Source: Bacillota bacterium (GTDB taxonomy: Bacteria > Bacillota > Clostridia > Oscillospirales > CAG-382). From it: 64,000 nucleotides of DNA. A program made the position numbers and the translations under genes. Positions 34,189-52,435 of the stretch are shown here, in pieces (position 1 is the first letter of the stretch; every line of letters starts with the position of its first letter). The notes under the pieces were generated by a model. That model saw only the letters and a list, made by a program, of their open reading frames with translations, was not told where the DNA came from and made no database searches. The stretch is from NCBI GenBank assembly GCA_029550965.1, contig JAKPGJ010000006.1, positions 1 through 64,000 of the forward strand. Direction: 5' to 3'.

Positions 34189-34217
34189 TTGATTTTTGTA
34201 ATTGGATGTGCTATAAT
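34189..34217 (+). promoter_or_regulatory. Sigma-A promoter of the LamG-like surface protein gene
   Basis: TTGATT-N17-TATAAT. Confidence 0.7.
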
Positions 34218-34244
34218 CTCTTTATCAAAATAAAGGAGGTTCAT

Positions 34245-35282
34245 ATGAAACGGCGCATTCTGAAATATGCGGCTTTGTTCGCAGTAATCTCTCTCCTAAC
34301 GGCAGCTTGCTTATCGGTTCCCGCGAACGCGGAAGAGTATAACTATGTAAAAGATGGTCTCGAAGCATTATATATCGGCAACAACAACACGGGCAACGGA
34401 CAGGATAAGAACGCGACCGTCTGGAAGGATTTATCCGGCAAGAACAGGGACATTACAGACGTTCCGAAGAACGGAACCAACTATTTCACCGACACCGGCT
34501 ATCATCTTGATACGATGAAGGTTTACTTCCCGGCCTCGATCAACGACATTGTGAACGGCCAGGAGTTTACTATTGAAGTCGTATTTGGCGACATCGAACC
34601 GAAGGGTTCGGACTTCTTAACCTTTGTCAACTGCGCAAACGACAACTTCTCGCTCTTTAGAAGAAATGCGGGAGACAAGATTGAGGTTAAGACCAACAAC
34701 AGTCCCGGCGAAAGACCCGAAGCGACCGGCGGTCTGGAGTATTTCAAGAACTCTACCGTAACGGTTACATATAAAGTCGGCGGCAAGTGCATTATTTACG
34801 TGGACGGCGAAAAGATCGACGAGAAACCGGTCAGCACAATCGTCAATGTCAATACCGACAACAGAATGTGGTTCGGCCATGACGAAGCGACGAGAAACCA
34901 TGCGACCGAATACCGCGCGATCCGCTTCTATTCAAAAGAACTGACTGCCGATCAGGTTAAGGCAAACTACGAGGTTGACAAGACGGTTTTAGGAAAAGCA
35001 TATACCGGCGGCGGCACAACCTCAACGCCGGCGGAATCTTCTGCCGCTTCTTCTCAGGCGGCGATCGAGTCTTCCGCGGCCGCTTCATCGGCTGCGACCG
35101 ACGTTTCTTCCAAATCCAGCGCGAGCGCGGCTGCCAGCAGCGCCGCTGCTTCCGAGGCTGCGGAGGATGACAACGAGGGCGGCAGTTCGTATTATATCTA
35201 CATTATCATAGCGGCAGTTGTGGTTCTCGCGGCGGTTGTCGTATTTGTTATCATCAACAACAAAAAAGATAAAGAGGAATAA
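34245..35282 (+). CDS. Surface protein: LamG/ConA-like domain, Ser/Ala linker, C-terminal TM anchor
   Basis: Signal peptide; ATVWKDLSGKNRDI...RAIRFYSKELTADQVKANY; Ser/Ala-rich stretch; SSYYIYIIIAAVVVLAAVVVFVIINNKKDK. Confidence 0.8.
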   Translation: MKRRILKYAALFAVISLLTAACLSVPANAEEYNYVKDGLEALYIGNNNTGNGQDKNATVWKDLSGKNRDITDVPKNGTNYFTDTGYHLDTMKVYFPASINDIVNGQEFTIEVVFGDIEPKGSDFLTFVNCANDNFSLFRRNAGDKIEVKTNNSPGERPEATGGLEYFKNSTVTVTYKVGGKCIIYVDGEKIDEKPVSTIVNVNTDNRMWFGHDEATRNHATEYRAIRFYSKELTADQVKANYEVDKTVLGKAYTGGGTTSTPAESSAASSQAAIESSAAASSAATDVSSKSSASAAASSAAASEAAEDDNEGGSSYYIYIIIAAVVVLAAVVVFVIINNKKDKEE

Positions 35283-35330
35283 TCCGCTTCGTATAAGATT
35301 ACACAATACATATAAAAAAGGAGAAAGAGT

Positions 35331-36365
35331 ATGAGGAGAAAACTAACTGCGTTCGTTACCGTTTTTTTCCTAATCGCTGCTGTCTGCATACCGTTGCTGT
35401 CAGTAAGCGCCGAGACGTATAATTACGTTAAAACCGGACTCGAAGCGCTGTATATCGGCAACAACAATACAGGCGATGGACAGGATAAAAACGCGACCGT
35501 TTGGAAAGACCTGTCCGGCAAGAACAGAAACATTGACCTAACACAGCTTTCTGCGGCGCAAAAAGAGAAGGTTTATTTCACGGATTACGGCCTTTACAAC
35601 GATTCGACGAAGGTATTCTTCCCCGACGAAATCAAGGATGTTATGAACGGGGATGAGTTTACTGTCGAAATCGTACTGGGCGATGTTGAGCCGAAGGGCT
35701 CTTCGTGGAATACGTTCATCAACAGCTCAAACGACAGTTTTTCGCTCTTCCGTTTGGTAAGCTCGGATCAGCTTGTCGTAAAGAGCCAGACGGACGCTAA
35801 TCACGCGAACACAAGACCCATCGTCAACAACGGTCTGGAACTCTTCAGGAATTCGACCGTAACGGTAACGTTTAAGCTCAACGGAAAGCTCACCGTTTAT
35901 GTTGACGGCGTGAAGGTCAAAGACGAAAACGCTCAGCATAAGCTGTCCTGCAACGATTTCTTCTTCGGCCATGACGACACGTACAGAAATCATGCGACCG
36001 AATACCGCGCAATCCGCTTCTACTCCAAAGAGCTGACCGCTTCGGAAGTAGCGGCAAACTATGAAGTTGACAAGGTTGTGTTTGCTGAATCGAACGGCGG
36101 TACTTCGTCGGATACTTCGTCGGCGGCTTCAAGTGCGACGTCCTCGGCGCCCGCAAGTTCGTCGTCCAGCAGCGCTGCGGCCAGCACGTCCAGCGCGGCG
36201 CAGTCTGCAAGCACTTCGTCCAGCGCGGCCGGCGCGTCCAGCAGCGCAGCCAGCTCGACCAATCCTCAGACCGGAGAAAACGACATCGTTTATGCTTTCG
36301 CGATTTTAGGCATTCTCGCGCTGACTTCCATCATGGTTGTCGTCAGAAACAAAAGAAGGGCTTAA
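35331..36365 (+). CDS. Paralogous LamG/ConA-like surface protein with sortase-like NPQTG tail
   Basis: Strong similarity to the preceding gene; Ser/Ala linker; C-terminal NPQTGEN-TM-RNKRRA. Confidence 0.8.
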   Translation: MRRKLTAFVTVFFLIAAVCIPLLSVSAETYNYVKTGLEALYIGNNNTGDGQDKNATVWKDLSGKNRNIDLTQLSAAQKEKVYFTDYGLYNDSTKVFFPDEIKDVMNGDEFTVEIVLGDVEPKGSSWNTFINSSNDSFSLFRLVSSDQLVVKSQTDANHANTRPIVNNGLELFRNSTVTVTFKLNGKLTVYVDGVKVKDENAQHKLSCNDFFFGHDDTYRNHATEYRAIRFYSKELTASEVAANYEVDKVVFAESNGGTSSDTSSAASSATSSAPASSSSSSAAASTSSAAQSASTSSSAAGASSSAASSTNPQTGENDIVYAFAILGILALTSIMVVVRNKRRA

Positions 36366-37210: not shown

Positions 37211-37239
37211 TTGACAATCATTATTATTTGTTTTATAAT
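37211..37239 (+). promoter_or_regulatory. Consensus sigma-A promoter of the pel operon
   Basis: TTGACA-N17-TATAAT, perfect consensus. Confidence 0.88.
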
Positions 37240-37266: not shown

Positions 37267-37352
37267 AAAACTGAATAGATGGGCAAACCTGCTGTGAAGC
37301 AGGGACGCAAAGCTAAGAGTCATGTTGTAAAAGCACATGATTGTCTGGTTGC
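37267..37352 (+). promoter_or_regulatory. Cyclic di-GMP-I (GEMM-I) riboswitch aptamer
   Basis: GGGCAAACCTGCT-GTGA-AGCAGGGACGCAAAGC (GNRA tetraloop stem), second stem AGTCATGT...ACATGATT, 3' GTCTGGTTGC; matches GEMM-I conserved core. Confidence 0.94.
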
Positions 37353-37385
37353 ATATTTCGTTTTGAAAATATGCAGCCTTTTTTT
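37347..37385 (+). terminator. Riboswitch expression-platform terminator
   Basis: GGTTGCATATTT-cgttttga-AAATATGCAGCC followed by 7 T; the 5' strand overlaps the aptamer P1 3' strand. Confidence 0.88.
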
Positions 37386-37446
37386 ATTATACAAATACAT
37401 ATCAACTTATAGAACAATTTAAAAAATAGGAAGAAGGGGGAAAGCT

Positions 37447-38085
37447 GTGAAAAGATCGCTGTTTGGCTACAACATCAAGGAAACAGACAATTTGTTTAAT
37501 TCCATGCAGAATCACATTGATGTTCTGACCGGGAAAATCACCAACCTCAACGCCGAGCTTGCCGCAAAAAGCAACGCCGCGGCAATCAGCGCGGAAGCGG
37601 AACGTAAAATTGCCGAGCTTCAAGAGAAAATAAATCTATTGGAGAAGGAAAACAATGCGCTGAAAAAGGATTTGAGCGCCGCCAGATCAAAAATCGAACA
37701 TCAGGCGGAGTTCGGAACAGCTTCGAAAAAGACGACCGAAGAGCAGGCGGCCGAAAACAATAAAAAAATCGAGAACATCGGCAAGATTTATCTTACCGCG
37801 TATGAAGACGCTGAAAGAATAAGAAATAACGCCGTTGAGGAAGCGAACGAATATCTCAGGAAGTTTGAAGAAGTGAAAAAGGAACTAAAGCAAAAAATGA
37901 CTGCCGTACTCGAAGAGATTCGAAAGCAGCAGAGCATGATGGAAGACACGCTGAACGAGACGGTGCAGATCATTGTAAAAGCCTTGGGAGAGTTTAGCGT
38001 TCAGAGCGACCGGATGCTGGATGCAATTGAAAAACTTGAGAGCAACGTCGCGGCAAGCGCAAATATGGCAGGGATTGAAAAGTAG
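37447..38085 (+). CDS. Coiled-coil, DivIVA-like protein
   Basis: GTG start; LFGYNIKETDNLFNSMQNHIDVL (DivIVA-like N-terminus) then long heptad coiled coil. Confidence 0.6.
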   Translation: MKRSLFGYNIKETDNLFNSMQNHIDVLTGKITNLNAELAAKSNAAAISAEAERKIAELQEKINLLEKENNALKKDLSAARSKIEHQAEFGTASKKTTEEQAAENNKKIENIGKIYLTAYEDAERIRNNAVEEANEYLRKFEEVKKELKQKMTAVLEEIRKQQSMMEDTLNETVQIIVKALGEFSVQSDRMLDAIEKLESNVAASANMAGIEK

Positions 38086-38119
38086 AACAACAACAATTTA
38101 ATCGAAAGGTCGTTCTCTG

Positions 38120-39883
38120 ATGAAAACAGGTGCAGGCCGTCCCAACCATCGAAATACAACATCGGTTATTGTTTGCTTTATGCTTGCTGTTTGCCTGGCG
38201 TTGGTTCTGTCAGGAATAGAGATACTCGCCTTGAAAAAGAACCGGGGCGAAATCCCGATTGAGAATTGGCAGTATGCCTGGGTGAAAAAGCCGGACGAGT
38301 ATATCTATGCCGAGAATAACTGGAAGCAAACGACAACCGGCAAAATAGAAAACGAAAACCGCAGCCGTTATCTGCACCTCCGCACCGAAATCGAGAGCGG
38401 CGAATCGACGAACATCTTGATAATCCGAAGCGGAAACAACCTGATGAACATAGACGTGGACGGCAAGCGCGTGCATGAGCAGCTCGGAGCCGACGAACTA
38501 TATTCGGGAACCTCCAAAATCGAGGTTATGCTCGAACCTTCGGACAAGGCGCATAAAATTGATATTTACCTCTATGCGCCGTCCGTACTGCGGTTTTCCG
38601 CCTTTCTAAAAAACACCGCCGCCGTTCAGCCGCGGGATATCGCGGGGATACTGCTGGGCGCAATTCTGTTCGGCATGTCGGTTGCGCTCCTGTTTGGAAG
38701 GAAGAACGGCAAACAAAAGAAAGCCGTCACGGCGGCGGGCGTGACCTGTCTGAGTTTGGGACTTTGCGCGGTCCTTGGTCAATCCGGCATATATATCGGG
38801 CAGTTTTCGGCGCCCGTTTTTTACAAAATATTGATATTGCTTTTTATGTTCGCGTCGATCGGCGTGCAGTATCTGGCTTTCGTGATGCTTGAAGCGCATC
38901 CAAAAATGAACTGGGTATTGAAGGTCAGCGCGTTTTTGCCGGTTTGCTTTATTGTGGCGCCGAACACTTCGTTTGCGCAGCTCATCCTTTGCATGTACAC
39001 AATCTGGTGCGCCGCCTGCGTTTTTATCTTGCTGGCCGTTATGTTTGCCGGCGGCGTGCCGTCTGGAACGGAAAAAAGAGCGGCAGTTGTATGTTTTTTG
39101 ACGGCCGCCGCGCTTCAAAGCCTATACTGGTTTTCCTATTTCATTCCATTTGACATAACGTTTATGCTGTCCGCCCTTATTGCAGCCGGGGGCGGCATCG
39201 TGGCTGCGGCGGCCGTTTGGTCCAGACAGACGATTATAGCGGACGAAAAAGAAGCCGATGTCAAAGCGGATTTGATTAAAAGAATACAGAAATACCTGTT
39301 TGAAAAAGCAGACACCAATAAAGGCCATCTCGAAAACGTTTCAAACTATGTCCGAGTCATATGCCGGCAAATGAAAATGCCGGAAAGCACGGTCGAAATG
39401 GTTGCCGACGCGGCATATCTGCACGACATTGGGAAGGTCGCTTTGCCTAAAGCGATTCTGAAAAAGGAAGAAGGCGTGGATAATAACGAGTACGAGCAGC
39501 TGCGCAGTCACGTTCTTTTCGGATACAATATTTTGATCGACCCGAGCGACCACTTTTTGCAGACGGCGGCGAATATCGCGATGTATCACCACGAAAGGTA
39601 TGACGGAAGCGGGTATTTGGGCAGAAAGGGCAACGAGATTGACCTGTTCTCCCGTATCACCTCGATTGCGGACACCTTTGACGCGCTGACCTCCGATCGC
39701 TCCTATAAAAAAGCGTGGAGTTTTGACGAGGCGTACGAATACATCAACCTGCATGCGGACGATTATTTTGATCCCGATCTTGTAAGGGTATTTAACGCCT
39801 GCCGTAAGGAGATTTTGGAAATTTATCAAAAAAGCCGGACGCAATCAATCAAAAATCCGGGCGTTGGCGAAGGATTACAATAA
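38120..39883 (+). CDS. Membrane-anchored HD-GYP domain protein (candidate c-di-GMP phosphodiesterase)
   Basis: Extracytoplasmic domain, about 7-8 TM segments, then YLHDIGKVALP ... HHERYDGSGYLGRKGNEIDLFSRITSIADTFDALTSDRSYK. Confidence 0.9.
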   Translation: MKTGAGRPNHRNTTSVIVCFMLAVCLALVLSGIEILALKKNRGEIPIENWQYAWVKKPDEYIYAENNWKQTTTGKIENENRSRYLHLRTEIESGESTNILIIRSGNNLMNIDVDGKRVHEQLGADELYSGTSKIEVMLEPSDKAHKIDIYLYAPSVLRFSAFLKNTAAVQPRDIAGILLGAILFGMSVALLFGRKNGKQKKAVTAAGVTCLSLGLCAVLGQSGIYIGQFSAPVFYKILILLFMFASIGVQYLAFVMLEAHPKMNWVLKVSAFLPVCFIVAPNTSFAQLILCMYTIWCAACVFILLAVMFAGGVPSGTEKRAAVVCFLTAAALQSLYWFSYFIPFDITFMLSALIAAGGGIVAAAAVWSRQTIIADEKEADVKADLIKRIQKYLFEKADTNKGHLENVSNYVRVICRQMKMPESTVEMVADAAYLHDIGKVALPKAILKKEEGVDNNEYEQLRSHVLFGYNILIDPSDHFLQTAANIAMYHHERYDGSGYLGRKGNEIDLFSRITSIADTFDALTSDRSYKKAWSFDEAYEYINLHADDYFDPDLVRVFNACRKEILEIYQKSRTQSIKNPGVGEGLQ

Positions 39884-39930
39884 GAACGGGATATACGCAT
39901 ATCATTGTTTTTCTGAGGGGAGAAAATAGA

Positions 39931-42075
39931 TTGGAAATTTTACTGACCGGCATGCTTTCCTTTATCTCCGCCGGCTTCTGCAACAGACTTTGCAGCCGGC
40001 ATAAAGTCGTGCTGGCTTCCGACGATATCGATAAAAAAAATATAGGAAAAAAGGCCATACCGTTCGTCGTTCAGCAGAATGACGAAAAGCTGGCTAAAAT
40101 TTTCCATTCCTATAACTTTTCTACCGTTTTGTTCTTCTCGCCTTCCGCTGCCGGAATCCGGGAAAACCGGGGAGAACTGAGCAGGCTCGAAACCATCCTG
40201 CGTTTTTGCGCGGAGCATGAAGTAAAAAACGTTATCTACATATCTTCCGCTTCTCTTTATTCAAGAGAATCGAACTTCGATGAAAACGCCAAGCCCGAAC
40301 CCTGCGACAGCGTCGGCGTCGAGCTGGAGGCCTGCGAGCGCCTTTGCGAATTCTACCGGAAGAACGAAGGGCTGTCTATCCTCATCCTGCGCGTTCCGTA
40401 TCTTTACGGTTACGGCGAGAACGCTTCGGCGGTCGCAAACATGATTAAGCAGGCAATCGAACGCTCCGCGGTTCGGTTTGCGGGCAGCAGGGACCAGATC
40501 TGCGAGTTTCTCTCCGAAGAGGATTTCAGCGATCTGATTCTGAGAATCATCGACGACTGGCCGACGGAAAACGTCCTGAATGTGCCGGGCGGGTGCTCGT
40601 ACTCGTTTTCCGGTCTCGGCGTTGAGTTCATAAAACTGATGCCGACACTCAAAATCTCCTATTCGGGCAGAAGCGACACGGTGCCGGTTCCGGTCAATAC
40701 GGACCTTGTGCGCAGAGAGTACGACTGGATTCCGGTTGTCAATATCGCAGACGAACTTCCGCGGCTGATCCGGGAATACAGCAACCGGTTTCATCCCGAA
40801 AAGAGCGGCTTAAAACACCGCTTCGGGAAGTTTATCGCCAAAAACAGGCTGATTGTGATTCTTGCCGAAATTATTTTCGGCTATCTCATCACCGAAATGC
40901 TGAACAGTATGTCCCATACGATGGTTCAGTTCCAGTATATTGATTTTCGGCTTTTGTACGTTGTGCTGATCTCGACGATGCATGGGATTGTTCCGGGGAT
41001 GGCGGCGGCCGCACTGGTCTGCGTCTCGCTGATCATCGGCTTTTCGCAGCTGAACATCGACTGGGAGAGGCTGCTTTACAATCCCGAAAACTGGGTACCC
41101 TTCGCGTGCTATCTCATCGTCGCTTCCATTGCCGGCTACACGAAGGAAAGATATTCAAACGAGCTGAAATACTTAAAAACCGAGAACAGCGCGCTGGACG
41201 AACGCTATAAGTTCCTATACGAACTTTACCGGGAAGCGCTGAAAAACAAGGGCGAGTATAAAGCGCAGATTCTTTCGTACAGCGGCAGCTTCGGACGCAT
41301 TTACGAGGTCGCGCGCAGACTGAACAGCCTGCTGCCGGAGGTTATTTTCAAGGAATCGCTTGCATCGCTCGAAGATTTGCTGATGAACCAGACCATTTGC
41401 ATTTACACGATTTCGACGGACGCGAACTACGCCCGCCTTGCGGTATGTTCGCAGAAGCTGAATCAGAAAGTGCCGAAATCGTTAAAACTTGACGATTATG
41501 CCGAGATAATCGAGACGCTGCGCGATGGCGAGGTCTGGTGCAACAAAGACCAGAATCCTGATTATCCCGACTACTGCGCCGGAATATTCCGCAAGGACAA
41601 GCCGGTTGTGCTGATTATGATTCAAAAAGTCAAGTTCGAGCAGATGGCGATGTATTATCAGAACCTGATACGGATTTTGTGCGGTCTGATTCAGGTGGCG
41701 CTGATTCGAGCGTATGAGTACAACGAGAAATGGGAGAGCGAGCGGTATCTGCCCGGAACCAATATTATCGATAAAGCGCACTTCCGGCTTCTGCTTGACG
41801 CAAAAAATGAAATGGCTGAAAAGGAAATCGCGGAGTTTACGCTGATCCGCATTCTCTGCAGGCCGGAAGAGCGGGCAAGCGTCAGCGAAATACTGCTGAA
41901 CACGCTCCGAAGCACCGATTATATCGGAATCGGCGAAGACGACGAGCTGTACGCTTTGCTTTCTCAGGCGGGTCGCATGAATATTGACATTATCGCGCAC
42001 CGTCTGCGCGAAGCCGGCATCGAATTTGAAGTCACGGATCAACTGCCTGCCGGCGCGGAAACCGCTGCTGTTTAA
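39931..42075 (+). CDS. pelD: PelD-like c-di-GMP receptor with N-terminal degenerate SDR/epimerase-like domain
   Basis: N-terminal SDR-like (about 285 aa), TM block, GAF-like and degenerate GGDEF (GEDDELYALL) preceded by RSTD I-site; synteny with pelE/A/F/G. Confidence 0.83.
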   Translation: MEILLTGMLSFISAGFCNRLCSRHKVVLASDDIDKKNIGKKAIPFVVQQNDEKLAKIFHSYNFSTVLFFSPSAAGIRENRGELSRLETILRFCAEHEVKNVIYISSASLYSRESNFDENAKPEPCDSVGVELEACERLCEFYRKNEGLSILILRVPYLYGYGENASAVANMIKQAIERSAVRFAGSRDQICEFLSEEDFSDLILRIIDDWPTENVLNVPGGCSYSFSGLGVEFIKLMPTLKISYSGRSDTVPVPVNTDLVRREYDWIPVVNIADELPRLIREYSNRFHPEKSGLKHRFGKFIAKNRLIVILAEIIFGYLITEMLNSMSHTMVQFQYIDFRLLYVVLISTMHGIVPGMAAAALVCVSLIIGFSQLNIDWERLLYNPENWVPFACYLIVASIAGYTKERYSNELKYLKTENSALDERYKFLYELYREALKNKGEYKAQILSYSGSFGRIYEVARRLNSLLPEVIFKESLASLEDLLMNQTICIYTISTDANYARLAVCSQKLNQKVPKSLKLDDYAEIIETLRDGEVWCNKDQNPDYPDYCAGIFRKDKPVVLIMIQKVKFEQMAMYYQNLIRILCGLIQVALIRAYEYNEKWESERYLPGTNIIDKAHFRLLLDAKNEMAEKEIAEFTLIRILCRPEERASVSEILLNTLRSTDYIGIGEDDELYALLSQAGRMNIDIIAHRLREAGIEFEVTDQLPAGAETAAV

Positions 42076-42096: not shown

Positions 42097-42987
42097 ATGT
42101 GGTTTTTTTTGATATTTCTGATCGTACATATTTTAATCTGTATATTTCTGTTCGCCGCAGTCAAAACCGGCAACATCGCGGCGCCGCCGCAAATGCTGCC
42201 GATCGCGGTATTCGTCCCGGTCTGGGGCGTCGCTACGGTGCTGGTCTGCAGCAGGATGACGAAAAAAGGACTTGCTGCGACAAGAAACGCCGAGCTGGAC
42301 GACCTTATTCTGCACGCGGACGACTGGCGCAAGACCACCTTTATGGAGGAGAGAAGCGCGAAGAGCGTCGTGCCGCTCGAAGAGGCGATCCGAATTAACG
42401 ACGCGAAAATCAGACGCCAGCTGATGCTGGACATCATGCGCGAGGATCCGGCGGAGTATATCCGGCTGCTGCAGGAAGCGCGTTTGAACGACGATATCGA
42501 GGTCACCCATTATGCTTCTACCGCTATGATGGAGGTTCAGCGCAAGTTCGAAGTCGACATTCAGAAACAGGAAAAAGCGCTTCAGGCGAACCCAGACAGC
42601 AAAGAGGTTCTGGACGAATACCTTCAGCTATTGAAAAAATACATCGACAGCGGAATGCTCAAAGAAAACATGCTGGTCATACAGCGTATCCGATACGACA
42701 ACCTGCTAAAAAAGAAAATGACCGAGTATCCGAAAGAAAAACAGACGTATTTCGAAGCCGCGGACAATTACATAGAACTGGGATACTTCGGCGAGGCCGA
42801 GAAAATGGTCAATTATCTTGTCCGCAGATGGCCGCAGGACGAGAAAACCTGGATTTTGAAGCTAAAACTGTATTTTGAAAAACACGACAAGGCAAACTTT
42901 GAAGCTACGGTTTTAGAAATCAAAAAGAGAAAAGTGTATTTAAGCTCCCAGTACAAAGCCCTGCTTTCCTTCTGGGAAGCTCCCTAA
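42097..42987 (+). CDS. pelE: PelE-like TPR membrane protein
   Basis: Two N-terminal TM segments and helical TPR-like repeats; located between pelD and pelA-like genes. Confidence 0.7.
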   Translation: MWFFLIFLIVHILICIFLFAAVKTGNIAAPPQMLPIAVFVPVWGVATVLVCSRMTKKGLAATRNAELDDLILHADDWRKTTFMEERSAKSVVPLEEAIRINDAKIRRQLMLDIMREDPAEYIRLLQEARLNDDIEVTHYASTAMMEVQRKFEVDIQKQEKALQANPDSKEVLDEYLQLLKKYIDSGMLKENMLVIQRIRYDNLLKKKMTEYPKEKQTYFEAADNYIELGYFGEAEKMVNYLVRRWPQDEKTWILKLKLYFEKHDKANFEATVLEIKKRKVYLSSQYKALLSFWEAP

Positions 42988-43009: not shown

Positions 43010-44827
43010 ATGACGACTTCAGCAAAGCTCAGAATATTACTAATACCGTTTGTCGTTCTATCGTTACTGTCTTTACTGCTGCTTGCCGAAAGAATCGGCC
43101 TGAAGATAACGGCGGCCGACGAAGAGGTCATTTTTCTTCCGGACAGCGTAAAAAATACACCAAAAGCTGAGCAGGAAAAAGAATGTCTTATCCTGTTTGA
43201 CGGATCATCCGATTCCATGGTTGCCTTCAAAAAGCAGATGACGGACATTTTAGATATCATGCGAGTGGGTTATGACACAGTTGATGTCAACGGCAGGGAT
43301 ATACCCGATTTAAGCAAATACAGAACGGTTGTTATTACGTTCAGCAAGCTCGAAAAGATTCAAAACAGCATTTTGCATGTTTTCGAGTGGGTAAAAAACG
43401 GCGGCAGGCTGATGTTCAGCTGCGCGCCGGAACCGTCAATCGTCTTTCAAGTGGTCAAATATAAGATGGGTATTTGGGAATCCGGCATTGATTATGTATA
43501 CTGTAGCGGTGTAAAAGTTGTTTCGGATTTTATGATCGGCGCAAAAGGTGAAACATATCAGTGGTCCACATCTTGGGATTCATCATTGGCAGTAACGCTG
43601 CAGGAAAGTTGTAAAGTACATGTCGTTTCCCTGAGCGACAACCCAACACCCATGGTTTGGGAATATGACTATGGGGCAGGCAGAGTCGTCGTTAACAACC
43701 ATTATATTTTAGAAAAGGTTTCCAGAGGACTGCTTGCCGCTTCATACACGCTGCTCGAGGACGTCATCGCTTATCCGGTGATCAATGCGTCAACCTTTTT
43801 TATAGACGATTTTCCATCTCCGATTCCGCAGGTCGAGTCCGAGTATATCAAAAGCTATGGACGGACCATCGACAGCTTCTACATAAACGTTTGGTGGCCG
43901 GATATGCTTGAGCTGTCCCGAAAGTACGGTTTTACCTATACGGGCGGCATCATCGAGGATTATAATGAATCCACAAAATCTCCTTTTATAAGAAACACGA
44001 ATACAAGGCAGTTTTTGGACCTGGGCGGAATGCTTTTGAAAAATGGAGGAGAAATATGCCTGCACGGCTACAACCATCAGCCGCTGGTCGCACAGAATTT
44101 TGACTTCCAGGGCAAATATACCTACAACAAATGGAGAAACATGGACGAGATGACGTTGGCGCTCAACGAACTGCTCGATTTTACCAAGTCATTATACCCG
44201 GACGCGAAAATATCCGTCTATGTTCCGCCTTCCAATATATTGTCCGAAGAAGGCAGGGCTGTGCTGACCACAAGAATTCCGAACATCCGCTGCATCGCCT
44301 CTCTCTATCTTATAGAGGATGTCGAGTATGAGCAGGAGTTTGATGTTAGTCCGGACGGTATCATTAATCTTCCGCGTGTTGTTTCGGGCTATATCATAGA
44401 CAATTATATGAAGTGGGCCGCGATAAATGCGCTGAATCTATATTATGTCAACTCGCATTTCATTCACCCGGACGACGTGCTCGATGTTGACCGCGGCGCC
44501 GAACTGGGCTGGGAATTTATTAAGAACAGCTTCGACAGTTATTTAAACTGGCTGTACACGACCGCGCCCAACATTCGGAGCATGAACGCCAGCCGCGCTG
44601 CTGCGGAAGTTGAGCGCTATGACTATTTGCGCGTAAGAAGAACCGTCAGCGAAAACGAATACAAATTGTCGCTGAGCGGATTTTACGACTATGCTTATTT
44701 GATGTTGCGCATAAATAACGGAACGCCCGGTACGGTAAAGGGCGGCAGTCTGGAAAAGCTGGAAGGCAACCTTTATGTACTTCACGCTACCTCGTCAGAG
44801 GTCACGATAGAAATTCAAAAAAACTGA
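43010..44827 (+). CDS. DUF2194 / PelA deacetylase-like protein
   Basis: N-terminal TM; FIDDFPSP (DD), CLHGYNHQPL (HxxxH) NodB-like motifs; pel synteny; no hydrolase domain apparent. Confidence 0.75.
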   Translation: MTTSAKLRILLIPFVVLSLLSLLLLAERIGLKITAADEEVIFLPDSVKNTPKAEQEKECLILFDGSSDSMVAFKKQMTDILDIMRVGYDTVDVNGRDIPDLSKYRTVVITFSKLEKIQNSILHVFEWVKNGGRLMFSCAPEPSIVFQVVKYKMGIWESGIDYVYCSGVKVVSDFMIGAKGETYQWSTSWDSSLAVTLQESCKVHVVSLSDNPTPMVWEYDYGAGRVVVNNHYILEKVSRGLLAASYTLLEDVIAYPVINASTFFIDDFPSPIPQVESEYIKSYGRTIDSFYINVWWPDMLELSRKYGFTYTGGIIEDYNESTKSPFIRNTNTRQFLDLGGMLLKNGGEICLHGYNHQPLVAQNFDFQGKYTYNKWRNMDEMTLALNELLDFTKSLYPDAKISVYVPPSNILSEEGRAVLTTRIPNIRCIASLYLIEDVEYEQEFDVSPDGIINLPRVVSGYIIDNYMKWAAINALNLYYVNSHFIHPDDVLDVDRGAELGWEFIKNSFDSYLNWLYTTAPNIRSMNASRAAAEVERYDYLRVRRTVSENEYKLSLSGFYDYAYLMLRINNGTPGTVKGGSLEKLEGNLYVLHATSSEVTIEIQKN

Positions 44828-44855: not shown

Positions 44856-46286
44856 TTGCGAATTTGTATGATTCTTGAGGGCTGTTATCCGTATGTGAGA
44901 GGCGGCGTATCGAGCTGGATGCACGCGTACATCGGAGCAATGCCGCAGCATGAGTTCGTGCTTTGGGTAATAGCCGAGTCCCGCGAAATGAAAGGCAAAT
45001 TCAAATATGAAATGCACCCGAACGTAAAAGAAATTCATGAAGTCTTTTTATCGGACGCGCTCAAGTTAAGGCCGAAAAAAGGCTTGGCGAAGTATAAGTT
45101 TACCGAAGAAGAAATAGCGGAACTGAAAAAACTGATCGCCTGCGAGAACCCGTCATGGCCCATTTTGTTTCGAACCTATAAAACAAAGAAGGTCAACGCC
45201 GTCGATTTCTTGATGGGCGAGGAGTTTCTTGAAATTCTTCTGGAAATGTGCCGGGAGAAATACCCCTTCGTTCCGTTTGCGGAGCTGTTTCATACGGTCC
45301 GCTCGATGCTGGTCCCCATGCTTTTCCTGATGGGGCAGGACGTGCCGCAGGCGGACATTTACCACGCAACCTCAACCGGATATGGCGGACTGCTCGGCGC
45401 GATGGGCGGCTGGAGTTCCAACAGACCGTTTATTGTTACCGAACACGGCATTTACACCCGTGAGCGTGAGGAGGAGATTCTGCGCGCAAAATGGGTTCCG
45501 CCCTATTTTAAGCAGCAGTGGATTTCGCTTTTCCATATGCTGTCGCAGTGCGCTTATGACAACGCGGTCACCGTAACATCGCTGTTCCCGCGCGCGGCGG
45601 AAACGCAGATCGAGCTGGGCTGTCCCCCTTATAAATGCAGAGTCATCCGAAACGGCATTCACATTGAGAACTTTATAAACATACCGCCCAAAGAGGAGAA
45701 CGGCTATATCGACATCGCGGCGATTGTGCGTCTTTCCCCGATTAAGGATATCAAGACCATGATTTACGCTTTCGTAGAATTGAAAACAAAGGTGCCGAAC
45801 GCCCGGCTGCATATTTTGGGCGACACCGACGACGAGGATTACGCAAGAGAATGTGTAGAGCTGGTCAAACAGCTCGATGTAAAGGATGTCTTTTTCGTAG
45901 GCAACACCAACGTGCCGGAATATCTGAAAAATATTGACTTTACGGTACTGTCGAGCATTTCGGAAGGTCAGCCGCTCGCGGTGCTGGAGTCCTTTGCCGC
46001 CGGCAGACCCTGCGTCACGACGGATGTCGGCTGCTGCCGGGAGCTATTGAGCGGGTATGCGGACGATAACTTCGGAAAGGCGGGCATTTATGTACCGCCG
46101 ATGCATGCGGAAATGCTCGCTGCCGGCATGGAACTTCTCTGCAACCGAAAGGACGTGCGCGATTCGATGGGAAAAGCCGGCAGGGAGCGCGTTAAAAAGT
46201 ACTATGTGCATACGGATATGATTCGGAGATATCTTGAGAACTACGAGGAGGCGCTGTCGCAGTGGCAGGCATTGGATTTGAGCTGA
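44856..46286 (+). CDS. pelF: PelF-like GT4 glycosyltransferase
   Basis: MRICMILEGCYPYVRGGVSSWMHAYI...HATSTGYGGLLG...VITEHGIYTREREEEI-type motif; SISEGQPLAVLESFAAGRPCVTTDVG. Confidence 0.94.
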   Translation: MRICMILEGCYPYVRGGVSSWMHAYIGAMPQHEFVLWVIAESREMKGKFKYEMHPNVKEIHEVFLSDALKLRPKKGLAKYKFTEEEIAELKKLIACENPSWPILFRTYKTKKVNAVDFLMGEEFLEILLEMCREKYPFVPFAELFHTVRSMLVPMLFLMGQDVPQADIYHATSTGYGGLLGAMGGWSSNRPFIVTEHGIYTREREEEILRAKWVPPYFKQQWISLFHMLSQCAYDNAVTVTSLFPRAAETQIELGCPPYKCRVIRNGIHIENFINIPPKEENGYIDIAAIVRLSPIKDIKTMIYAFVELKTKVPNARLHILGDTDDEDYARECVELVKQLDVKDVFFVGNTNVPEYLKNIDFTVLSSISEGQPLAVLESFAAGRPCVTTDVGCCRELLSGYADDNFGKAGIYVPPMHAEMLAAGMELLCNRKDVRDSMGKAGRERVKKYYVHTDMIRRYLENYEEALSQWQALDLS

Positions 46287-47767
46287 AAAAACTGTTCGCA
46301 AAAAAAGGCCTGTTCGCTTCCATAAAAGCCTACGGATATGCGGGCGTTATTTGCGCCGGACCCATGCTGCTCGGCGTTATCCTCCTCCTCGGCGCGAGGT
46401 TTATAACCGGGTATGCCGGCGCGAGCGGACATGAAAGAGAGCTTTTAAACTCCATGCTTACCTATGCTTTGCTCGCATCGCTGACGCTTACAAGCCTTTT
46501 CTCAATGGCAACCACAAGAGCGATTGCGGACCTGTATTATCTAAAGCAGCTCGAACGCATTATGCCTACGTTTTACGGAAGCACGGCGGTTATGCTTGTC
46601 ATCGGCGTGCCGGGATACGGGATTTTCCTGCTGTTTTCAGGAGTTTCGTTCATATATAAGGTATTAAGTCTTGTATACTTCGCCGTTTTGATCGTAGTAT
46701 GGACAGAAATTAACTATCTTACGGCAATCAAGAATTACAAAGAGATTCTCGCAACCTTTTTCATCTCGCTGCTTTGCGCTTTGCTGTTGGGCGCTTTATT
46801 CTCTCTCCGGTTGGATATAGAGCCGATTACCGGCATGTTTATCGGCATTATCATCGGCTACGGCATCATGATGGTTCGGTATTTTATCGTAATATACAGG
46901 TATTTCCCGGAGGGCAAGGGAACCTGTATGCACTTTTTGAGGTGGTTCGACAATTATCCGCAGCTGACGGTTATCGGTTTTTTCATCACCATCGGTCTGT
47001 TCGGTCATCTCGTCATTATGTGGGGCAGCCGAATCGGCGTACAGGTGCAGGGGTTGTTTTACGGCGCGCCCGTATATGATATCCCGGCGCTTTTGGCGTT
47101 TTTGTCGATATTGATTACCACCGTGAATTTCGTAACTTCCGTTGAAGTGCGGTTTTATCCCTGCTACCGTGATTATTTCAGCCTTTTCAACGATAAAGGC
47201 TCGCTTGAGGATATAGAGGACGCAGAAAAGAATATGCTGGTTGTTCTGCGCGAGGAGTTAATCTACTTAGCGCAAAAGCAGGTGTTTACCACCGTGTTCT
47301 TTATTATCTTGGGAACCCTGCTGCTGCCGGTATCCGGATTGGGGTTTACGCGCGAAATGCTGGGCATATACCGCGTTCTCTGCGTCGGCTACGCCTTTTA
47401 CGCGATTGGAAACAGCATCATGCTGATTCAGCTGTATTTTGCCGACAATAAAAACGCTTTAAAAAGCGCGATACATTTTATGATTTGCAGCGTAGTTCTA
47501 ACCTTTATATTTAAAGATATGTCTGCGGCGTTTTACGGCTTTGGATTTCTTATCGGCGGCGCGGTGTATTTCTTGTCCGCTCTGATAAAACTGAATTCGT
47601 ATTTAAAGAAGATTAAATATCATGTGCTTAGCTGTCAACCGGTGTTTAAAGCTGAAACGAGAGGTATATTCACACCGCTTTGTGACTGGCTGGAAGCGCG
47701 TTATATCAGGAATGCTCAAAAATCGAAATATTCAACCAATACGTATTATGGTGAATTTAAAATTTAA
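46262..47767 (+). CDS. pelG: PelG-like polysaccharide transporter (MOP flippase superfamily)
   Basis: MAGIGFELKKLFAKKGLFASIKAYGYAGVICAGPMLLG; about 12 TM; overlaps pelF. Confidence 0.94.
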   Translation: MAGIGFELKKLFAKKGLFASIKAYGYAGVICAGPMLLGVILLLGARFITGYAGASGHERELLNSMLTYALLASLTLTSLFSMATTRAIADLYYLKQLERIMPTFYGSTAVMLVIGVPGYGIFLLFSGVSFIYKVLSLVYFAVLIVVWTEINYLTAIKNYKEILATFFISLLCALLLGALFSLRLDIEPITGMFIGIIIGYGIMMVRYFIVIYRYFPEGKGTCMHFLRWFDNYPQLTVIGFFITIGLFGHLVIMWGSRIGVQVQGLFYGAPVYDIPALLAFLSILITTVNFVTSVEVRFYPCYRDYFSLFNDKGSLEDIEDAEKNMLVVLREELIYLAQKQVFTTVFFIILGTLLLPVSGLGFTREMLGIYRVLCVGYAFYAIGNSIMLIQLYFADNKNALKSAIHFMICSVVLTFIFKDMSAAFYGFGFLIGGAVYFLSALIKLNSYLKKIKYHVLSCQPVFKAETRGIFTPLCDWLEARYIRNAQKSKYSTNTYYGEFKI

Positions 47768-47806: not shown

Positions 47807-49585
47807 TTGAAACATAAAACCGCGTCAGTTTTTAAAATCGTTGCGTTCTCTATACTCATTGCTATATTGAATTCTACTTTGTGCAGTTGTTTTATTACGT
47901 CAAATGATTCTATAACTGATGATAATGAAATTACAAACGAAGTTGAGAAAATGAAAGCAAATGAAATGATCATACAGGATAATAAAAGCATCTATCGGTA
48001 TGACGTTGAGGACTCGATTGTTACAATGTATCTTACGGTAAGAAAGGGGAACTCCACCGAGAATACCGATCATACTTGGGATGAAGTAAACAGTCTTTCG
48101 ATTTTCGACTATGAATTGCTTGGCGTAGAACGTTTTGGAGTGGAAGCCATTCTAAAAATAGGCGACGAGAACGGTCCTCTGCCTGGAGAACTGGGGTATG
48201 GTGAGACGGTGCCGAATGCGATCGTTCGTGTCAGAGGCAATACGGCGTCAAGAAATCCTCAGAAATCATACAAAATTGAATTGAAAAAGGGCAAAGGTAC
48301 TTGGCGTGAGCAAAGAACAATCATATTAAACAAACATCCATTTGATCAAACTCGTGTTATGAACAAGCTCTATTTCGATCTATTAAGAGGCGTTCCAAAT
48401 ATGGTGAGCGCTCGCACGCAGTTTGTTCATTTGTACGTAAAAGATGAGACGGGACCTGACGCAGCAACGTCGGTATATAAGGATTATGGTCTTTTTACGC
48501 AGATAGAGCAGTATAATTCAAGATATCTGCGAAACCATGGTCTTGACGAGAATGGGCAACTGTATAAAGCAGAGATGTTTGAATTCTTCAGATATGAAGA
48601 TGCGATTAAGTTGAAATCTGATCCCGGTTACAGTGTTAAGGATTTCGAAAAAGTACTGGAAATCAAAGGAAACGATAATCATACCAAGTTAATCGCAATG
48701 CTTGAAGAATTGAATAATTATTCAATCGATATAGAAGAAGTGTTTGAGAAGTATTTTTACATAGAAAATTACTTTACATGGCTGGCTTATAACATACTCA
48801 TGGGGAACCTTGACACGATAAACAGAAATTTCTACCTATACAGCCCGACAAATTCTACGAAATTTTATTTTATTCCCTGGGACAGTGACGGCTCGTTTTC
48901 AAGGGTTAGGAATGAGTACTTAGGTATTCCAAATGAGTACGGACATCAAATAGGAATCAGTAATTACTGGGGTTGTGTTTTGCATGAAAGGGTATTGTCT
49001 AAGCAAAAATACCGTGATATGCTCTCAAGTAAAATAGAAGAATTAAAAGACTATTTAACAAAAGAAAAGATTTCGAACCTGCTGAACAGTTACAAAGCTG
49101 TGATAAAAAAATATCTTTATTCTATGCCGGATATTTTGTATTATTCCGTCACCGAGGATCAGTTTGACGGTTTATACGAGGCTATTTCAAATGGCGTCGA
49201 GTTAAACTATCAGTTGTATCTGGAAAGCATCAAGCGTCCGATGCCGTTTTTTATAAATAAACCCATCATAGAAAATGGAAAAATAAAGTACTCATGGCAG
49301 GTTGCATTTGATTTTAATGGAGAAGACATTAAATATGATGTAGAGATTGCTCGGAACTTAGCGATGACGGACTTAATCGCTTCCTTTAAAGGGATAGAAA
49401 TCCCAGTGGTAGAAACCGAGATGTTGCCGATGGGGCAGTATTTTGTTCGCGTAAAAGCGATTAATGAATCGGGCGAAGCACAGTATGCAATGGATTACTA
49501 TGTGTCCGAATATTCTAGGCATTACGGCATATATGCTTTTTATATTCAACCGGATGGTACGATTGAAACAGTACACACAACGTAA
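47807..49585 (+). CDS. CotH-type protein kinase, secreted/lipoprotein
   Basis: Signal peptide with Cys; VRGNTASRNPQKSYKIELKK, GNLDTINRNFYLYSP, FYFIPWDSDGSF. Confidence 0.88.
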   Translation: MKHKTASVFKIVAFSILIAILNSTLCSCFITSNDSITDDNEITNEVEKMKANEMIIQDNKSIYRYDVEDSIVTMYLTVRKGNSTENTDHTWDEVNSLSIFDYELLGVERFGVEAILKIGDENGPLPGELGYGETVPNAIVRVRGNTASRNPQKSYKIELKKGKGTWREQRTIILNKHPFDQTRVMNKLYFDLLRGVPNMVSARTQFVHLYVKDETGPDAATSVYKDYGLFTQIEQYNSRYLRNHGLDENGQLYKAEMFEFFRYEDAIKLKSDPGYSVKDFEKVLEIKGNDNHTKLIAMLEELNNYSIDIEEVFEKYFYIENYFTWLAYNILMGNLDTINRNFYLYSPTNSTKFYFIPWDSDGSFSRVRNEYLGIPNEYGHQIGISNYWGCVLHERVLSKQKYRDMLSSKIEELKDYLTKEKISNLLNSYKAVIKKYLYSMPDILYYSVTEDQFDGLYEAISNGVELNYQLYLESIKRPMPFFINKPIIENGKIKYSWQVAFDFNGEDIKYDVEIARNLAMTDLIASFKGIEIPVVETEMLPMGQYFVRVKAINESGEAQYAMDYYVSEYSRHYGIYAFYIQPDGTIETVHTT

Positions 49586-49605: not shown

Positions 49606-50325
49606 ATTATTAAAACCGAAGAAGCCTATAAAAGAAGTCTTTACCGGCATGAGTTGAAGTATTTGATCAATTATAAAGACAGAGACATTCTTGTCAAAAG
49701 GCTCGAGGGTTTGATTCGGAGAGACACCCACGCCGAAAAAGGTTATTACAAAGTGCGCAGCCTGTACTTCGACGATTACTGGAATGGCGCGTATGAAGAA
49801 AAGCTGATGGGCGTTTCGGGACGCAACAAGTACCGGATCCGAATCTACAACGACTCGGACAGCGTGATCCATCTCGAGCGAAAAACCAAAACGGGAAGCT
49901 ATATTTACAAGAAAAGCGCGCCGCTGACAAGAAAAGATGTCGAGAAAATTCTGGACGGGGATTACAGCTTTTTGCTGTATCATCCGCAGCCGCTGTGTCA
50001 GGAGTTCTACGTGCAGTGCATCTCGCGCGTGATGCGGCCGCGGGTGGTGGTGGATTACGAGCGCGAGCCGTTCGTGTTCGAAGCGGGCGACGTCCGAATC
50101 ACCTTCGACTCGGACGTTCGGGCGTCCTCCCTAAATTTCTCCATTTTTGACCCGGCGCTTCCCACCAGCAGCGTTTTGGAGCCGGGAAAACTTGTTCTTG
50201 AGGTGAAGTTTACCGAGTTCCTGCCCAACCTTATCCGCGAAGCGCTTCCCGCCGAAGCCGCGGAATTGTCGGCGGTATCCAAGTACGTTCTTTGCTGCGA
50301 AAAAACCGATTATATCTATTCGTAG
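49606..50325 (+). CDS. VTC-domain (triphosphate tunnel) protein, probable non-AUG start
   Basis: YRHELKYLI, VRSLYFDDYWNGAYEEKLMG, RNKYRIRIYN, IHLERKTK, MRPRVVVDYEREPF, LVLEVKFTEFLP. The ORF track begins at TTG 49654, inside the conserved RHELK motif. Confidence 0.85.
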   Translation: MIKTEEAYKRSLYRHELKYLINYKDRDILVKRLEGLIRRDTHAEKGYYKVRSLYFDDYWNGAYEEKLMGVSGRNKYRIRIYNDSDSVIHLERKTKTGSYIYKKSAPLTRKDVEKILDGDYSFLLYHPQPLCQEFYVQCISRVMRPRVVVDYEREPFVFEAGDVRITFDSDVRASSLNFSIFDPALPTSSVLEPGKLVLEVKFTEFLPNLIREALPAEAAELSAVSKYVLCCEKTDYIYS

Positions 50326-50361
50326 GATCAAAACTGACATACGGAAAGGAAATTGCATATT

Positions 50362-51039
50362 ATGACTTTTAAGGATATTCTCAAGAACTTTAATGACGAA
50401 ACCTTTAAACAGTACTTTAACTGGCTCACCATAAGCGAAACGCTGATCGTGCTGGTTGTTGCGCTCGTAATGGGGCTGCTCATCTGTTTTATCTACACCA
50501 AGTTTTTCAGAGGCGTCGTATATAGCCGGACATTTTCGATTACGCTCATCGGCATGTGCGTCATGACCAGCATGGTAACGCTGGCTATCAGCTCGAATAT
50601 CGTAATCTCCCTCGGTATGGTCGGCGCGCTGTCTATCGTACGTTATCGTACCGCCATCAAGGAACCGCTTGACCTGCTCTATCTGTTTTGGTCGATAACG
50701 ACCGGAATCACCGTGGGCGCAAAGATGTATGTCCTTTCCGTAATCGCCGCCGTTATTATGATTCTCATCATTCTACTGTTCAGCCGCAGGTCCATTACAG
50801 GCAGGGTTTACATAATGGTAGTTCATTATGTCGGCGATCTTGCGGGCGACATGATTCGCAAAGCCTTAGGCAGCGCAAAATACCGTATAAAATCCAAGAC
50901 GGTCCGCAAGGATGCGTCGGAAATGGCGATCGAGATTTTCGCAAAAGGCGACAGCATGGCCTTTGTGGAAAAAATCCGCGCGATCGACAATGTATTGGAT
51001 GTGACGATTATCCAGTATGACGGCGAGTACCACGGCTAA
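50362..51039 (+). CDS. DUF4956 membrane protein
   Basis: Multiple TM then LGMVGALSIVRYRTAIKEPLDLLYLFWSITTGITVGA signature; follows VTC gene. Confidence 0.87.
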   Translation: MTFKDILKNFNDETFKQYFNWLTISETLIVLVVALVMGLLICFIYTKFFRGVVYSRTFSITLIGMCVMTSMVTLAISSNIVISLGMVGALSIVRYRTAIKEPLDLLYLFWSITTGITVGAKMYVLSVIAAVIMILIILLFSRRSITGRVYIMVVHYVGDLAGDMIRKALGSAKYRIKSKTVRKDASEMAIEIFAKGDSMAFVEKIRAIDNVLDVTIIQYDGEYHG

Positions 51040-51040
51040 T

Positions 51041-52435
51041 ATGACGTTGAAAAAGTTAATCGCCCTGATTGTCGCTGTTACGCTGGGCGGCGGAACCATG
51101 AGCGGGGGAGCTATGAAGAAATTCTTCTTGGGTTTTAAATGGTCAAAAACGGTTTCCTTTGAACAAAGCGGCGAGGTCGTCGTCAATCCGATGACCGGCT
51201 TTGCCCCGATCGCGGAAAATACGAAAGTCGCGGAGAAGTATTCACTGGTTTACGTGGACGTCACCTGGCGGGAACTTGAACCCGAGGAGGGCGTTTTCGC
51301 CTTTGAAGAAATTGACCGCAGCAACCATCTGGAGCGCTGGCGCGCGGACGGAAAAAGGGTGGTGTTCCGTTTTGTGCTGGATAAGCCCGGCAGCGAAGCG
51401 CACATGGACATCCCAGACTGGCTGTATGAAAAGACCGGCGGCGCCGGATATGCGTATGATCATGAATACGGCAAAGGCTTTTCGCCGGATTATACCCATC
51501 CCGACGTCATAGAAGGCCACGCGAAGGCGATACGGGCGCTCGGCGCGTATTACGGCAAAGACGATTTTTTTGCCTATATCGAGCTCGGCAGTCTGGGGCA
51601 TTGGGGCGAATGGCATGTAAAATACGACGCGGGCGTTCCGCGGCTGCCGAATGAGGAAATTCGGGACAAGTATATTCAGCCCTATCTGACCGCGTTCCCG
51701 AATTCGCAGATTCTGATGCGCAGACCGTTTACGCCCTGCAAGGTGTACGGCTTCGGGGTTTACAACGATATGACCGGCCACGCCGAAGCGACCGAAGAAT
51801 GGCTGGGCTGGATCAACTACGGCGGAAAATACAGTCAAACCGGAGAGCCAAACGTGATTCAGGCGGTGCCGGAGATATGGAACAAAGCCGCGGTGGGCGG
51901 CGAGCTGACCAGCTCGATTTCCATGGACTGGCTGTTGCGGTTCCATTTGAACGAAACGCTAAATCTGATCAAAAGGTCGCATATGACTTTTATAGGGCCG
52001 AAAATACCGGAGGGCGACATTTATGCGGAAAGCGCCGGCGAGATTCTGAAAAACCTCGGCTACCGCTACCGCATCGAAAAGGTGAGCGCGCGGGAGACGC
52101 TGGACGGCAAAAAGCTGAAAGTCAAGTTGCACTGGATCAACGACGGCGTCGCGCCGCTATACTGGGACTGGGACGTCTATCTGTACCTTCTGGACAGCGA
52201 GAACAGTATTGTTGAGAAAAGCCAGGTGGATATTAAACTCAGCGAGCTTACCGAAGGTAAAACAATTGTCACGCAGACGCTTCTGGATATCGCGAACAAA
52301 CAGGATAATTCCTACAAGCTGTGCATCGGCATTATAGACCCGAACACGGGCGAACCGGCGGTACAATTCGCGATGGATGCCGAACGGATCGGCAACATGA
52401 CGGTTTTGGCCGAATGGAACGACTTGACGAACTAA
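51041..52435 (+). CDS. DUF4832 protein (glycoside hydrolase-like TIM barrel plus Ig-like domain)
   Basis: NPMTGFAPIAENT...LVYVDVTWRELEPEEGVFAFE...YIELGSLGHWGEWH... Confidence 0.8.
   Translation: MTLKKLIALIVAVTLGGGTMSGGAMKKFFLGFKWSKTVSFEQSGEVVVNPMTGFAPIAENTKVAEKYSLVYVDVTWRELEPEEGVFAFEEIDRSNHLERWRADGKRVVFRFVLDKPGSEAHMDIPDWLYEKTGGAGYAYDHEYGKGFSPDYTHPDVIEGHAKAIRALGAYYGKDDFFAYIELGSLGHWGEWHVKYDAGVPRLPNEEIRDKYIQPYLTAFPNSQILMRRPFTPCKVYGFGVYNDMTGHAEATEEWLGWINYGGKYSQTGEPNVIQAVPEIWNKAAVGGELTSSISMDWLLRFHLNETLNLIKRSHMTFIGPKIPEGDIYAESAGEILKNLGYRYRIEKVSARETLDGKKLKVKLHWINDGVAPLYWDWDVYLYLLDSENSIVEKSQVDIKLSELTEGKTIVTQTLLDIANKQDNSYKLCIGIIDPNTGEPAVQFAMDAERIGNMTVLAEWNDLTN

Follow-up and report, generated by a model that had tools for sequence, protein, structure and literature searches.

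Pel control systems and the locus under study

The pelDEADAFG operon of Gram-positive bacteria occurs in clostridia and streptococci in a type where PelD carries an N-terminal domain of the short-chain dehydrogenase/reductase (SDR) family and the operon is accompanied by genes for CotH, polyphosphate polymerase, DUF4956, and DUF4832 proteins (Whitfield et al. 2020, PMC7112168). According to the same text, the I-site variants R363A, D366A, and R395A of PelD from Bacillus cereus were made, binding of cyclic di-GMP (c-di-GMP) is reported to be required for biofilm formation, and the cyclase and phosphodiesterase for Pel of B. cereus, CdgF and CdgE, are not presented as operon genes. Here, we analyze a pel operon of this type in a 64,000-nucleotide stretch of DNA from a Bacillota bacterium (positions 1 to 64,000 of contig JAKPGJ010000006.1, assembly GCA_029550965.1, 2.07 Mb and 97% complete), hereafter called the window, in which the operon begins with a c-di-GMP-I riboswitch aptamer, a gene for a coiled-coil protein, and a gene for a membrane protein with an HD-GYP domain. 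All coordinates refer to the forward strand of the window unless another locus is named.

Both ON and OFF designs exist among the class I c-di-GMP riboswitches, since all seven functional members in Clostridioides difficile are OFF switches and Bc2 of Bacillus thuringiensis is an ON switch (PMC6366702). Such riboswitches seldom control enzymes of c-di-GMP metabolism (PMC6366702), and early work had already noted GEMM RNAs ahead of certain cyclase and phosphodiesterase genes (PMC12564702). Like the window leader, Bc2 combines a class I aptamer with a terminator and controls read-through into a surface or biofilm function, but the target in the window is a whole exopolysaccharide operon that includes an enzyme of the c-di-GMP-metabolism type. 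The window shares with the published pelDEADAFG locus the gene order, the accessory block, the epimerase-like N-terminus of PelD, and the RxxD I-site. In contrast, the main text of that study (PMC7112168) contains no riboswitch and, in its accessible parts, describes no head of HD-GYP and coiled-coil genes; HD-GYP is named there twice, one of the passages being a general statement on phosphodiesterases. No published description of a pel head with a riboswitch and an HD-GYP gene was found in a literature search that was thin on subscription papers. Thus, the SDR-PelD/CotH operon type is already published, and the new element is the combination of riboswitch and HD-GYP, made of parts of known kinds.

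In our preferred reading, to which we assign a probability of roughly 0.6, the operon is transcribed under an ON c-di-GMP-I riboswitch, PelD is activated by the same ligand, the HD-GYP protein provides negative feedback, and the cyclases are encoded elsewhere. A sequence-only reading of positions 37267-41949 had already placed a c-di-GMP aptamer, an HD-GYP protein, and PelD in one operon, and the three indeed share a strand and follow a promoter with a perfect sigma-A consensus. Its endpoint lies inside the PelD gene, which ends at 42075, and falls short of the operon, which extends to about 52435 with all genes closely spaced on the same strand. Between 37400 and 54000, terminator-like and promoter-like sites showed no clear excess over shuffled sequences (25 versus 20.0 and 23 versus 21.8). 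A division of the operon by internal promoters or terminators was therefore rejected, and it is plausible from the promoter, the gene spacing, and the gene order that aptamer, HD-GYP, and PelD share one transcript.

The riboswitch and its predicted direction

The putative promoter (TTGACA-17-TATAAT, 37211..37239) was identified by its match to the sigma-A consensus at 12 of 12 positions. The aptamer that follows (37273..37357) matches the covariance model RF03167 of the c-di-GMP-I-GGC subtype with 59.3 bits at a gathering threshold of 59 (E 1.9e-11), and the parent family RF01051 with 63.3 bits at a threshold of 35. Ten of the homologous loci described below have aptamers, 11 in total, and all 11 contain GGCAAA at what corresponds to the ligand-contacting place of Vc2, with a G before G21-C22 rather than the A of variants that sense cyclic GMP-AMP (cGAMP). 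The window aptamer is thus expected to bind c-di-GMP.

An intrinsic terminator hairpin of 12 base pairs and -14.0 kcal/mol (37347..37378), followed by a T tract (TTTTTTTATT, 37379..37388), overlaps the aptamer with its 5' arm at nucleotides 37347-37357. The same overlap is seen in 11 of 11 aptamers, where the last 10-11 nucleotides of the aptamer, made up of GG(C/T)TGC, its conserved 3' end, and the 4-5 nucleotides after it, also serve as the 5' arm of the terminator. Outside the shared strand, the terminator stems vary in sequence from locus to locus, and the pairing is kept in all of them. Compared with folds from which the 3' arm of the terminator is excluded, the terminator folds are predicted to gain 7.6-19.3 kcal/mol, and in dinucleotide shuffles the aptamer tail paired with a U-tailed arm in 2-46 of 2000 sequences per locus. 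By sequence and folding, the ligand-bound aptamer and the terminator are mutually exclusive in all 11 cases. When the terminator 3' arm is forbidden, the window leader folds into the aptamer helices with an extended P1 (AAAACUGAAUA with UAUUUCGUUUU). The stability of this fold falls short of that of the terminator fold by 8.5 kcal/mol, a deficit that ligand binding must pay, unless binding takes effect first because the aptamer is transcribed first.

Because one strand cannot serve the bound aptamer and the terminator at once, and no separate antiterminator is seen, we predict that the riboswitch is a transcriptional ON switch, at which c-di-GMP would promote read-through in cells. The sequence-only reading had left the direction open, with delayed negative feedback in the ON case and a double-negative circuit in the OFF case. 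In the latter, the ligand would favor termination, and high c-di-GMP would shut off both pel and the HD-GYP gene, in line with the C. difficile switches. Such a design, however, requires an antiterminator that uses the unbound aptamer strand, whereas here the terminator takes the 3' strand of the aptamer at every site; OFF control would also work against the activation of PelD, and Bc2 provides a precedent for class I ON control. Since the switch is predicted to be ON, we favor the feedback branch and regard the double-negative circuit as unlikely.

Conservation of the operon head

To place the operon head in context, loci were gathered from whole genomes and from named genome contigs with PelD as bait, and their neighborhoods were compared and scanned with Rfam. 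Genomes listed under two handles (L025 and L050, L026 and L052, L043 and L059, L048 and L051) were counted once. Upstream sequence was available for 11 loci with an HD-GYP gene, namely the window, L050 (Clostridiales GWF2_38_85), L052-L057, L059, L060, and L061; two more, L051 and L058, are truncated where their contigs stop and stand outside the aptamer count.

The c-di-GMP-I aptamer is located directly before the coiled-coil gene in 10 of the 11 loci, as compared to none of the 12 SDR-PelD loci without HD-GYP (L027, L044, L046, L047, and L062-L069), for some of which little sequence is available upstream (1.9 kb in L063, for example). In view of this conservation, against a background of 104 RF01051 matches in 149 genomes of the order (44 of them positive), a chance placement was rejected. 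The HD-GYP gene always adjoins the PelD gene in the homologous operons, and the layout is shared by ten or more genomes, almost all of them clostridial. Identity to the protein in the window is just 22-43% for the HD-GYP proteins and 36-42% for PelD within this group, which indicates that the association of riboswitch and HD-GYP is old. These data support an evolutionary coupling of the two elements, and with a conserved layout and a predictable switch direction the observation is stronger than it was in the sequence-only reading.

One locus speaks against the proposed circuit. L061 encodes the HD-GYP protein, but no riboswitch was recovered there at E values up to 10, nor by a search for the core motif, which rules out a hidden aptamer and makes this locus a true exception. 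Its leader (6700-7130 of L061) contains only AT-rich sequence with TTGCATA-like repeats. L055 carries a tandem pair of almost identical c-di-GMP-I aptamers before the pel operon (207-440 of L055), each with its own overlapping terminator. Tandem aptamers are expected to sharpen the response (PMC9481103). No further HD-GYP orthologue was identified at E 1e-40 in 392 genomes of the class, the second match, in genome G597, being an unrelated response regulator, and the riboswitch/HD-GYP type of pel operon is rare.

The HD-GYP protein

The membrane HD-GYP protein (38120..39883) matches PF13487 at residues 395-554 (39302..39781; E 1.7e-31). Its nearest structure in the PDB is PmGH (4MCW), an active c-di-GMP phosphodiesterase (E 9.4e-41), and it shares the fold of PmGH and PA4781 (4R8Z). 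Seven of the eight PmGH metal ligands (H189, H221, D222, H250, H276, H277, and D305) are kept, and the alignment maps K225, Y285, I294, D308, R314, and K317 to identical residues in the window. All of these are invariant in the clade, except that D308 is replaced by Glu in L050 and that L051 ends short of H189. The sequence-only reading had described the motifs as intact, and the HD and HHExxDGSGY motifs are present. However, the proline of the GYP motif (Pro286 in PmGH) is missing in the window, where the sequence reads GY-LG, and in 12 of 12 clade members, which keep GY. Moreover, the equivalents of D183 and E185 in PmGH (the latter a Tyr or Phe in the second subgroup of these enzymes) are A397 and T399 in the window, and no clade member whose sequence spans this region has either acidic residue. 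Intact motifs are therefore too strong a basis for activity, and the motif alone cannot show the activity of the clade.

The loss of D183 is a second point against the circuit, because the D183A variant of PmGH is inactive; K225A likewise abolishes activity and E185A lowers it, while G284A, Y285A, and P286A have little effect, P286A remaining active (PMC4159591). On the other hand, V-cGAP3 (VCA0681) has a Ser at the position of D183 in the alignment to PmGH, and it is active despite a Gln at the position of D308 (PMC4212101), so this requirement is not universal. Taken together, the protein probably hydrolyzes c-di-GMP.

The same losses throughout the clade, the inactivity of the D183A variant, and the constant position beside PelD would also suit a protein without phosphodiesterase function that acts as a third c-di-GMP receptor or as a PelD partner; it would bind c-di-GMP through the conserved site, relay an extracellular signal to the Pel complex, and leave a feed-forward circuit without feedback. 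A pure c-di-GMP receptor of the HD-GYP family is documented in DvhD, likewise a membrane sensor in a biofilm locus (PMC13090378). DvhD has, however, lost both HD and HH, whereas the window protein keeps both, and H189, H221, D222, K225, H250, H276, H277, and D305 are invariant wherever they are covered; a non-catalytic receptor need not keep catalytic residues invariant, and V-cGAP3 is active with its substitutions. We consider the receptor function rather unlikely. Even less expected is an active enzyme with a different substrate, be it a second dinucleotide (3',3'-cGAMP, for instance) or chiefly pGpG, with no feedback on the riboswitch signal. The second-best PDB match is the cGAMP-specific V-cGAP3, but PmGH, which acts on c-di-GMP, ranks first, the residues that contact guanine (R314 and K317) are kept, and the riboswitch and the PelD site are both of c-di-GMP type, which together make this alternative very improbable.

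The N-terminal half is predicted to comprise a transmembrane helix, an extracellular beta-sandwich, and seven transmembrane helices (model pLDDT 76), parts by which the window protein differs from PmGH and PA4781, in addition to its lack of D183, E185, and the GYP proline. In the model, this half resembles the 7TMR-DISM receptors. The RetS sensor domain (2xbz) appeared among the structural matches at rank 27 with a weak E value of 0.014 only, and no 7TMR-DISM Pfam match was obtained among the 12 HD-GYP members.

PelD

PelD (39931..42075) combines an N-terminal SDR domain, transmembrane helices, a GAF domain, and a degenerate GGDEF domain. The RSTD I-site that had been proposed from the sequence is confirmed as R660-S-T-D663 (41908..41919), in which R660 and D663 are invariant in 22 PelD homologues, as are R691 (42001..42003) and R502. 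R691 likely corresponds to R402 in Pseudomonas aeruginosa and R395 in B. cereus, judging from the spacing of 28 residues between D663 and R691, near the 29 between D366 and R395 in B. cereus PelD. When a profile is built from the C-terminal part, its alignment to diguanylate cyclases is weak but keeps the register, with R-x-x-D just before the lost GGDEF motif. This profile did not match any solved PelD structure; it matched only GGDEF domains, at E values of 0.05-0.8 and in the right I-site register. We draw the strong inference from these residues that PelD is a c-di-GMP receptor.

The SDR domain, which like the coiled-coil gene had gone unmentioned in the sequence-only reading, belongs to PF01370 and matches UDP-sugar epimerases, and the fold matches listed for PelD are SDR proteins. 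Its glycine-rich loop is altered to TGMLSFISAG, and the YxxxK motif reads Y142-E146, without the Lys; the domain is probably inactive as an enzyme. In the model of PelD (pLDDT 83, pTM 0.45), the SDR domain is accompanied by helices of the membrane and linker parts and by two alpha-beta domains.

The coiled-coil gene, the remaining operon, and its surroundings

The first gene of the operon (37447..38085), placed between the aptamer and the HD-GYP gene, encodes a fast-diverging coiled-coil protein, the orthologues of which share the start MKKSxxGYxxxEVD. No Pfam family exceeded the cut-off for the window protein. One of nine orthologues has a weak match to PF05103 (DivIVA; E 0.003), and the N-terminal GYxxxEVD motif (GYxxxExD in the window annotation) resembles that of DivIVA. 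The protein is possibly a DivIVA-like localizer of Pel synthesis.

Downstream of PelD, the operon continues with a PelE-like protein (42097..42987), which has no Pfam match and was assigned by its position and its conservation in homologous operons, a PelA deacetylase-domain protein (DUF2194; 43010..44827), assigned by its domain match and a position as in PMC7112168, the PelF glycosyltransferase (44856..46286; NF038011, E 6e-101), and the PelG exporter (46262..47767; PF16933, E 2.8e-130). These are followed by a CotH kinase-like protein (47807..49585; PF08757), a VTC-domain protein similar to polyphosphate polymerase (49654..50325; PF09359), a DUF4956 membrane protein (50353..51039; PF16316), and a DUF4832 protein (51017..52435; PF16116). 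The order PelD-PelE-PelADA-PelF-PelG plus the four accessory genes is the one that defines the SDR-PelD subtype, and by its gene content the locus is a Gram-positive pel operon of this type, for which a polymer of galactosamine/N-acetylgalactosamine would be expected.

Just 3' of the DUF4832 gene, a lipoprotein-like AlgX-type SGNH acetyltransferase is encoded (52564-53889; PF16822, E 9e-17), with a possible role in O-acetylation of the polymer. Upstream of the operon (34206-36365), a pair of surface-protein paralogues is encoded whose linkers are rich in Ser and Ala; one, the first, has a laminin-G-like match (PF13385), and the second has a C-terminal NPQTG with a hydrophobic tail, resembling a sortase signal. 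A second pairing of riboswitch and HD-GYP is located elsewhere in the same genome (4452-6921 of L024, about 13451-15920 of contig C41 in G000). It consists of a c-di-GMP-I-GGC aptamer, a small secreted-looking protein, an MNT-type nucleotidyltransferase, an HD-GYP protein with an intact GYP motif, a HEPN protein, and another c-di-GMP-I aptamer, so that an MNT/HEPN-like pair is split by a cyclic-dinucleotide enzyme.

Proposed circuit and its implications

At low c-di-GMP, the 3' end of the aptamer would pair into the terminator and transcription would stop, whereas bound c-di-GMP would keep the strand in the aptamer and block the terminator, so that the operon is read. The same ligand at the I-site of PelD would activate the PelDEFG synthase. 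Transcription and activation of the enzyme by one signal would form a coherent feed-forward loop with AND-like behavior, in which both steps need c-di-GMP. Made from the same transcript and dependent on an extracellular cue, the membrane HD-GYP protein would lower c-di-GMP and close both gates in a delayed, signal-dependent negative feedback. The sequence-only reading had considered the circuit to be self-contained, which does not hold: the locus does not encode a cyclase, and the seven GGDEF matches in the genome are all on contigs other than that of the window. The c-di-GMP would instead be supplied by cyclases elsewhere in the genome.

More tentatively, the HD-GYP proteins linked to pel may constitute a new class within the family that serves the Pel machine, either as a third reader of c-di-GMP or by acting locally as a phosphodiesterase to withdraw c-di-GMP from PelD upon an extracellular cue, possibly placed by the DivIVA-like protein, in which case one ligand would be sensed at the levels of RNA, synthase, and membrane receptor. 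A single exopolysaccharide operon has thus kept three elements tied to one ligand, namely a riboswitch predicted to be ON, a probable phosphodiesterase, and a protein receptor, in ten or more genomes. This would extend the control of Pel in Gram-positive bacteria from the protein level to transcription, and it would represent a compact natural feed-forward and feedback circuit that is suited to study in a reporter strain.

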